Shown: one piece after another, positions 24,950 to 29,658 of the stretch
Layout: every line of letters starts with the position of its first letter
How positions within the stretch are numbered: position 1 is the stretch's first letter
DNA from: Acidobacteria bacterium Mor1
Lineage (GTDB): Bacteria; Acidobacteriota; Polarisedimenticolia; Polarisedimenticolales; Polarisedimenticolaceae
Assembly (NCBI GenBank): GCA_001664505.1
Contig: CP011806.1
Coordinates: forward strand, 4,512,149 to 4,576,148
Direction: 5' to 3'
Length of the DNA: 64,000 nt
The notes under the pieces: model-generated
The model's database searches: none
Seen by the model: only the letters and a program-made list of their open reading frames with translations
What the model was told of the DNA's origin: nothing
Made by a program: the position numbers and the translations under genes

Positions 24950-25048
24950 TCTTGCCTTACCCGGTCCGGTTCTGTTGCGGCGCCTTCGATTCGCCGCGCT
25001 GAGCCGACCATCTACCGATTGACTGTCCATGCACATGGAGGGGATGTG

Positions 25049-25447
25049 ATGAAGAAGACGATGTGGAAGTTCGTGACGATCAGTTGCCTCGTGGTTTGCT
25101 GTGCCTTCTTCGCCGGCTGCGGCGAGAAGGGTACGGCGGAAGAGGCCGGCAAGGCGATCGACGACGCGATGTCCGACGCCAAGGACGCCGCCAGCGATCT
25201 GGCCGACGATGCCAAGCAGACGGCCGGTGATCTGGCCGACGGTGCCAAGGAAACCGCCGGCGATCTGGCCGACGGCGCCAAGGAGGCCTACGACGACGTG
25301 AAGGACGGCGCCAAGGAAGCCTACGACGACGCCAAGCAGGCCGCGGGTGAACTGGCGGACGACGCCAAGAAGGCTGCCGGCGAGGTGAAGGACGGGGCCG
25401 AGCAGCTGGCCGACGACGCCAAGAAGAAGCTCGGCGACAAGGACTGA
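25049..25447 (+). CDS. Lipoprotein with LEA-like Ala/Asp/Lys repeats
   Basis: 132 residues. Signal peptide ends in the lipobox FFAGC, so Cys becomes the acylated N-terminus. The mature chain is a continuous series of 11-residue-like units built from DAKxAAGDLADGAKE, with Ala, Asp, Lys and Gly dominating and no Pro or aromatic core apart from a YDD motif. Such amphipathic 11-mers are typical of LEA_4 or YtxH-like desiccation-associated proteins. GGAGGGG before ATG 25049 fixes the start. Location: lipid-anchored in the envelope. Confidence 0.75.
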   Translation: MKKTMWKFVTISCLVVCCAFFAGCGEKGTAEEAGKAIDDAMSDAKDAASDLADDAKQTAGDLADGAKETAGDLADGAKEAYDDVKDGAKEAYDDAKQAAGELADDAKKAAGEVKDGAEQLADDAKKKLGDKD

Positions 25448-28952: not shown

Positions 28953-28985
28953 AAAGGGCGGACCCGCGGGTCCGCCCTTTTTCTT
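28953..28985. terminator. Bidirectional intrinsic terminator
   Basis: 13-bp perfect stem (28953-28965 with 28968-28980) preceded by A residues and followed by TTTTT. It lies between convergent glnN and the selenoprotein-like gene and should work in both directions. Confidence 0.88.
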
Positions 28986-29007: not shown

Positions 29008-29625
29008 CTACTTGTTCATCGCCGCGGCTTCCGCCTTGGCCGTCGCGAGCAGCGCATCGGCATCGAGGCGCACCCGATAGTCCGGGTTGACGTAGCTGAA
29101 GCGGATCTTGCCGCCGGAGACCAGGAACACCGCCGGAACCGGCAGCATGCCGTGGTCTTCGCCGCTGGACTTGGCCAGGTCGATGCCGTAGCCGCGATAG
29201 ACCTCCTTGGTCTTGTCGTCCAGCTTGAAGGCGATCCCGAACCCCTGGGCCGCTTCCATCTTGGCGTCGGACATGAGGTCGAAGGCGATCTCGGTTTTGC
29301 CGAGGGTCTTCTTCAGTTCTTCCGGACGGTCGGGGCTGAGCGCCACGAGCCGGAACCCGAGTTCAACGAGTTGATCTTCGATCTTGGACAGTTGACCCAA
29401 CTGTCTGGTGCAGTACGGTCACCAACCGCCACGGTAGAAGATCAGGACCGCCGGGTCGTCCCCGGAGAGCTGGACGGTCTGGCCGTCCAGGGTCTGCACC
29501 GTGGCCTCGGGCACCGCGGAGCCGATCAGCAGGGGGCGGATCTCGCTCGCGCTCGCCGGCGCCGCGGCGTGTGCCGGCGCAAGGGCGAGTGCGAGGAGCG
29601 CCGCCGCGAGCAGCGTGCGTCTCAT
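29008..29625 (-). CDS. Secreted peroxiredoxin-like selenoprotein (UGA-encoded Sec69)
   Basis: 205 residues if UGA at 29419-29421 is read as selenocysteine. Signal peptide LLAAALLALALAPAHA is followed by an AhpC/TSA-like thioredoxin fold. The redox site reads FYRGGW-UGA-PYCTRQLGQL; relatives have FYRGGWCPYC, so UGA replaces only the first Cys of CPYC. The downstream frame (LGFRLVALSPDRPEEL, then VPAVFLVSGGKIRF) continues the same fold without other stops, and neither half is a complete protein. A 7-bp hairpin with a GGGUC loop starts 13 bases after UGA. GAGGAGG precedes ATG 29625. Sec would give a periplasmic peroxidase or thiol reductase. Sel genes are not in the window. Confidence 0.87.
29387..29405 (-). 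promoter_or_regulatory. Candidate bacterial SECIS hairpin
   Basis: Minus-strand stem GACAGTT/AACTGTC (7 bp, perfect) with loop GGGTC. It begins 13 bases after the UGA; the loop starts at 20 bases, inside the 16-37 range known for bacterial SECIS loops. The loop carries the G-rich GGUC-like feature seen in the fdhF element that SelB contacts. It lies within the coding frame. Confidence 0.75.
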
Positions 29626-29658
29626 CGTTCCTCCTCAGGATCGGGACAGAGCGCTCAG

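Follow-up and report, generated by a model that had tools for sequence, protein, structure and literature searches.

The locus studied here poses a simple question: does the UGA codon inside a peroxiredoxin-like gene end translation, or is it read as selenocysteine (Sec)? The gene lies in a window of 64 kb, by which we mean the whole stretch of DNA analysed, at 4,512,149-4,576,148 of a genome assembled as one 5.985 Mb contig (99.98% complete). A first-pass annotation had proposed a secreted selenoprotein at 29387-29625 without naming a strand. The features lie on the minus strand, and the gene, which starts at 29625, reaches 29008, so that the proposed span covers its 5′ third only.

A reading frame with a single internal UGA

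Translated with TGA as Sec (U), the minus-strand frame 29625-29008 comprises 205 codons, including Sec69, the single recoded codon. It begins with ATG at 29625 and ends with TAG at 29010-29008, and is open between these except at UGA69 (Table 1). As had been claimed, the UGA occupies the first-Cys position of the motif FYRGGW[C/U]PYC, which here reads FYRGGW-U-PYC, and the frame stays open beyond it, with homologues aligning from end to end. The Shine-Dalgarno sequence that had been noted was found as well, and the N-terminus, MRRTLLAAALLALALAPAHA, resembles a signal peptide, as had likewise been proposed; export of the protein is predicted from this segment. Standard gene callers let the gene end at UGA69 or begin beyond this codon, and the active site and the export signal are therefore missing from the annotation.

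Table 1. Features of the selenoprotein locus (positions in the window)
Feature	Position	Strand	Basis
Whole gene, exported peroxiredoxin-like (AhpC/TSA) selenoprotein (predicted)	29008..29625	minus	translation with TGA = U, Pfam PF00578, end-to-end homologue alignment
Shine-Dalgarno AGGAGG, 4 nt upstream of ATG	29630..29635	minus	sequence
Signal-peptide-like N-terminal segment (MRRTLLAAALLALALAPAHAA) (predicted)	29563..29625	minus	sequence and low-confidence model N-terminus (~20 residues)
In-frame UGA, codon 69, predicted to be read as Sec, first residue of UPYC	29419..29421	minus	TGA shared by L026, L027, L051-L053, L057-L059; Cys codons in 22 homologues
Codon for Cys72, predicted resolving cysteine of UxxC	29410..29412	minus	invariant in 29 aligned homologues
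bSECIS hairpin	29387..29405	minus	9/9 Sec homologues, 4 compensatory pairs; absent from 22/22 Cys homologues
Bidirectional intrinsic-terminator-like hairpin, between the selenoprotein gene and the type III glutamine synthetase gene	28953..28980		scan

The upstream neighbour is a DsbA-domain gene, and the terminator-like hairpin stands 3′ of the selenoprotein gene, which shares it with a gene for type III glutamine synthetase. A search with Rfam at gathering scores gave no match anywhere in the 64-kb window. Elsewhere in the window (25019-25447, plus strand), a small lipoprotein-like ORF carries repeated alanine/aspartate-rich KEAYDDVKDGAKEAYDDAK units that resemble LEA-type repeats.

Residues 34-175 of the protein matched Pfam PF00578 (AhpC-TSA) with 80 bits against a cut-off of 26, and the best fold matches in the PDB of its AlphaFold2 model (mean pLDDT 93.7, with low confidence for about 20 N-terminal residues) were Bcp/PrxQ, AhpE and ResA. 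Residue 69 of the model lies immediately before a helix formed by residues 70-80; placement of the active-site residue directly before a helix is standard for the thioredoxin fold. The peroxiredoxin motif sensu stricto, PxxxTxxC/U, was not found in the protein, which has RGGWUPYC, and all aligned members carry Arg at the Pro position and Sec or Cys at the Thr position of that motif. Sec69 thus appears to occupy the conserved Thr position of peroxiredoxins, and Cys72 the position of their peroxidatic Cys. Because these two positions would supply a UxxC pair, thioredoxin-like chemistry seems most likely. Sec69 and Cys72, at the N-terminal end of the first active-site helix, would form the redox pair, in which Sec69 is probably the attacking nucleophile, its selenolate attacking a disulfide or a peroxide; the resulting Sec69-Cys72 selenosulfide would then be resolved by a periplasmic (envelope) reductant as the predicted partner. 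The most likely role is that of a thiol:disulfide oxidoreductase or a thiol peroxidase in the cell envelope, two activities that the sequence does not separate.

Alternatively, the selenoprotein might be a true Sec peroxiredoxin, that is, a peroxide reductase and not a disulfide oxidoreductase. This proposal differs from the preferred one in function only and overlaps with it, and it draws on the AhpC-TSA match and on a sequence and fold closest to Bcp/PrxQ and AhpE. The defining PxxxTxxC/U is, however, replaced by RxxWUxxC, and Sec at the Thr position with Cys72 at the peroxidatic-Cys position is the arrangement of the Prx-like UxxC proteins (PMC1088965). We consider a peroxiredoxin proper to be a serious possibility, if not the expected one.

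Exchange of selenocysteine and cysteine among homologues

A scan of species genomes yielded 29 relatives. TGA occupies the same codon in two other Acidobacteriota genomes (L026, Thermoanaerobaculia, and L027). The position is Cys, encoded by TGC or TGT, in 22 homologues, which come from Bacteroidota, Verrucomicrobiota and Paraglaciecola, among other taxa. Of 41 genomes from the class to which the window belongs, four, the window's genome included, contain the gene (E <= 1e-25); all four belong to the same family, and each gene has exactly one internal TGA, at the same codon. The genes of the other three are L057-L059, all with TGA at codon 69. Identity of the window protein to the other five Acidobacteriota Sec homologues is 38-52%, and no neighbouring genes were held in common with L026, L027 and L057-L059 within the flanks compared. 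Residues F63, Y64, R65, G66, W68, U/C69, P70 and C72 are invariant among the aligned members; the in-frame UGA coincides with a Cys position in homologues and has conserved flanks on both sides. More distant FYRGGWUPFC proteins, also with Sec and with the same type of hairpin (GCAACTCGGYGAGTTGC), were seen in three MAGs of Candidatus Poribacteria (L051, L052 and L053).

The distribution of selA was recorded in part of these genomes. It scored over the cut-off in all six of the Sec-homologue genomes tested and in one of the five Cys-homologue genomes tested. The Puniceicoccaceae K14 genome (G044, the source of L028) has a selA over the cut-off, yet it encodes the Cys form of the protein. In a tree whose deep branches are weakly supported, and which gives the window protein no firm place among the Cys homologues, the Sec forms group together (4 changes, against 8.7 in shuffles).

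We also compared the two sides of the UGA. Identity to five Sec homologues is 44-59% upstream and 39-51% downstream, and in the downstream part differences are fewest at second codon positions (0.27-0.37) and most frequent at third ones (0.47-0.52). Because identity is similar on both sides and substitutions follow this order, the region downstream of the UGA is constrained at the protein level, not decayed, and the comparison shows purifying selection on both sides of UGA69.

The downstream stem-loop and the decoding machinery

A 7-bp hairpin with a GGGUC loop, said to begin 13 nt after the UGA, does occur there: 29405-29399 pairs with 29393-29387, and the loop lies at 29398-29394. The apical loop follows the UGA by 20 nt (21 if G24 and C28 pair), and in each of the nine Sec homologues a GGU or GGC loop is situated at a distance of 20-21 nt from this codon. 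The stem, the GG[U/C] loop and this spacing agree with the published model of the bacterial SECIS (PMC13188914).

Folding of the single sequence was uninformative. The isolated hairpin has an energy of −8.6 kcal/mol with G24-C28 paired and of −7.5 with an open 5-nt loop, the latter exactly at the limit, and its folding energy is unremarkable (z about −0.8). In the RNAfold minimum-energy structure of the isolated 40-45 nt, the UGA pairs with the loop in place of the named hairpin. This rival pairing was rejected on pair counts, as none of its pairs shows a compensatory change and several homologues disrupt it. Furthermore, the hairpin in one gene alone is weak evidence, because, given the peptide QLGQL, 7 pairs arise in about 13% of synonymous recodings of the window gene.

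The comparison of homologues gave a different picture. Across the nine Sec sequences, four of the seven pairs have changed on both sides with pairing retained. The covariation score is 0.325 against 0.159 in shuffles, and 0 of 500 shuffles reach 0.325, counts that are not probabilities, since the nine include non-independent sequences (L051-L053 are close to one another, as are L026 and L027). The signal collapses when the pairing partner is slid by one base, and RNAalifold, applied across the Sec homologues, recovers the named hairpin unprompted. The window gene has CAG TTG GGT CAA CTG where L026 has CAA CTG GGT CAG TTG; both encode QLGQL, and four of the five codons differ with the stem intact. 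At least 6 consecutive pairs are present in all nine Sec homologues and at most 4 in all 22 Cys homologues, among them L038, which lacks the hairpin despite a QLGQLQ peptide identical to that of L026. Covariation and the Sec/Cys contrast, not single-sequence folding, are what exceed chance. These comparisons show that compensatory substitutions, most of them synonymous, maintain the hairpin in the Sec homologues. SelB bound to Sec-tRNA-Sec would recognise the stem-loop 13 nt downstream (apical loop G-GGU-C), and its recognition would lead ribosomes to read UGA69 as Sec.

One could envision instead that the locus makes two products, a secreted peptide of 68 residues and a second protein whose translation restarts at TTG 29400, for which the ORF list offers a TTG-started ORF of 130 aa (29400-29008). 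The restarted protein would have neither the signal peptide nor the N-terminal strands nor the active-site motif, conservation of the peptide motif and of the hairpin extends across the UGA, and the Cys homologues are single proteins; we find such an arrangement highly improbable. A pseudogene, in which a Cys codon mutated to TGA and the gene died, would need a single substitution from TGC or TGT, and annotation that lacks rules for selenoproteins would cut the gene short or divide it in two. A pseudogene is contradicted by the TGA that six divergent Acidobacteriota genomes and the Poribacteria relatives have at one and the same codon, by the intact and constrained downstream frame and by the co-varying hairpin. 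The first-pass annotation was right to doubt a pseudogene, which we regard as next to impossible.

The genome is equipped to insert Sec. All four genes that the first-pass annotation had named for a search are present: selA (516 bits against a cut-off of 267.9), selB (330 against 242.25) and selD (358 against 125) were found with profiles, and tRNA-Sec (selC) scored 72.7 bits against a gathering score of 47 and was called by ARAGORN as tRNA-SeC with anticodon TCA. SelD of the same genome (L055, 2910488-2911429, minus strand) has one in-frame TGA itself (ASCAG-U-ASKMGP), as does the formate dehydrogenase alpha subunit, FdhA (L060, 5055762-5057774; 811.7 bits). A second Prx-like gene, L002 (5378496-5378783, minus strand), has an in-frame TGA in FYRGYW-U-PFC, and a hairpin with GGU in the loop lies downstream of the UGA in both L002 and selD. 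The N-terminus of L002 looks membrane-anchored. Given the single in-frame TGA in each of SelD and the formate dehydrogenase subunit, the number of selenoproteins encoded by this genome is probably four or more.

Decoding of the UGA as a different residue (Trp or Cys), through a general change of code or a suppressor tRNA, would look identical at this one codon, but it has almost nothing to recommend it when TGA serves as an ordinary stop elsewhere, as in the neighbouring DsbA-domain gene (29684-29682), no internal TGA interrupts SelA or SelB, in-frame TGAs stand at the known Sec sites of SelD and FdhA, the TCA tRNA belongs to the tRNA-Sec family, and the SECIS at UGA69 is conserved. Because the Sec machinery is present, homologues have either TGA or a Cys codon at this position, the SECIS is kept in Sec and absent from Cys homologues, and the downstream frame is constrained, we infer that the selenocysteine reading put forward by the first-pass annotation is right: the gene very probably encodes an exported, thioredoxin-fold Prx-like selenoprotein in which UGA69 is read as Sec through the downstream stem-loop.

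Relation to known selenoproteins

The locus would extend the Prx-like UxxC selenoproteins to another bacterial class, which the closest named relatives suggest to be Thermoanaerobaculia; our literature search found no paper mentioning both Thermoanaerobaculia and selenocysteine. It also offers a clean test case of a SECIS within coding sequence that is preserved through compensatory and mostly synonymous substitutions, with the Cys orthologues as a natural control. One further hypothesis, which we put forward tentatively and hold to be rather doubtful, is that these proteins form an undescribed exported FYRGGW[U/C]PYC subfamily in which one acidobacterial class exchanged the catalytic Cys for Sec, possibly more than once, and built the SECIS from synonymous QLGQL codons; the periplasmic enzyme with Sec would thereby have acquired a distinct, oxidation-resistant function.

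"Prx-like" UxxC selenoproteins were reported in the Sargasso Sea survey (PMC1088965), in the Global Ocean (GOS) survey (PMC2398784) and in Geobacter, Syntrophus and Desulfotalea (PMC1794560), the domain being PF00578 wherever one is given, and the UxxC type is listed in a current review, together with a "peroxiredoxin-like family protein" selenoprotein with UxxS (cd02970) (PMC13188914). Three selenoprotein families were already known from the phylum Acidobacteria in 2006 (PMC1794560).

Across the whole domain, the window protein weakly resembles the profile of the SelL-related redox protein (NF040769), at 43.3 bits far below the cut-off of 120. With the Sec peroxiredoxin PrxU (TxxU) it shares the AhpC/TSA domain and a Sec in the active-site region, but its Sec takes the place of the Thr, and a Cys fills the peroxidatic position (UxxC). 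RefSeq peroxiredoxin-like family proteins (FYRGGWCPYC) have the same domain and motif and about 35-52% identity, whereas they carry Cys for Sec, and no SECIS hairpin was present in the 22 tested. The closest likeness, drawn from published descriptions, is to the Prx-like UxxC selenoproteins: the same Pfam00578 domain, Sec as the first residue of a thioredoxin-like UxxC (here UPYC) instead of the TxxU found in peroxiredoxins, numerous Cys homologues and a bSECIS directly after the UGA. The window protein differs in its predicted signal peptide, its FYRGGWUPYC motif and its Acidobacteriota origin, and the gene would fit this selenoprotein type, known since about 2005.
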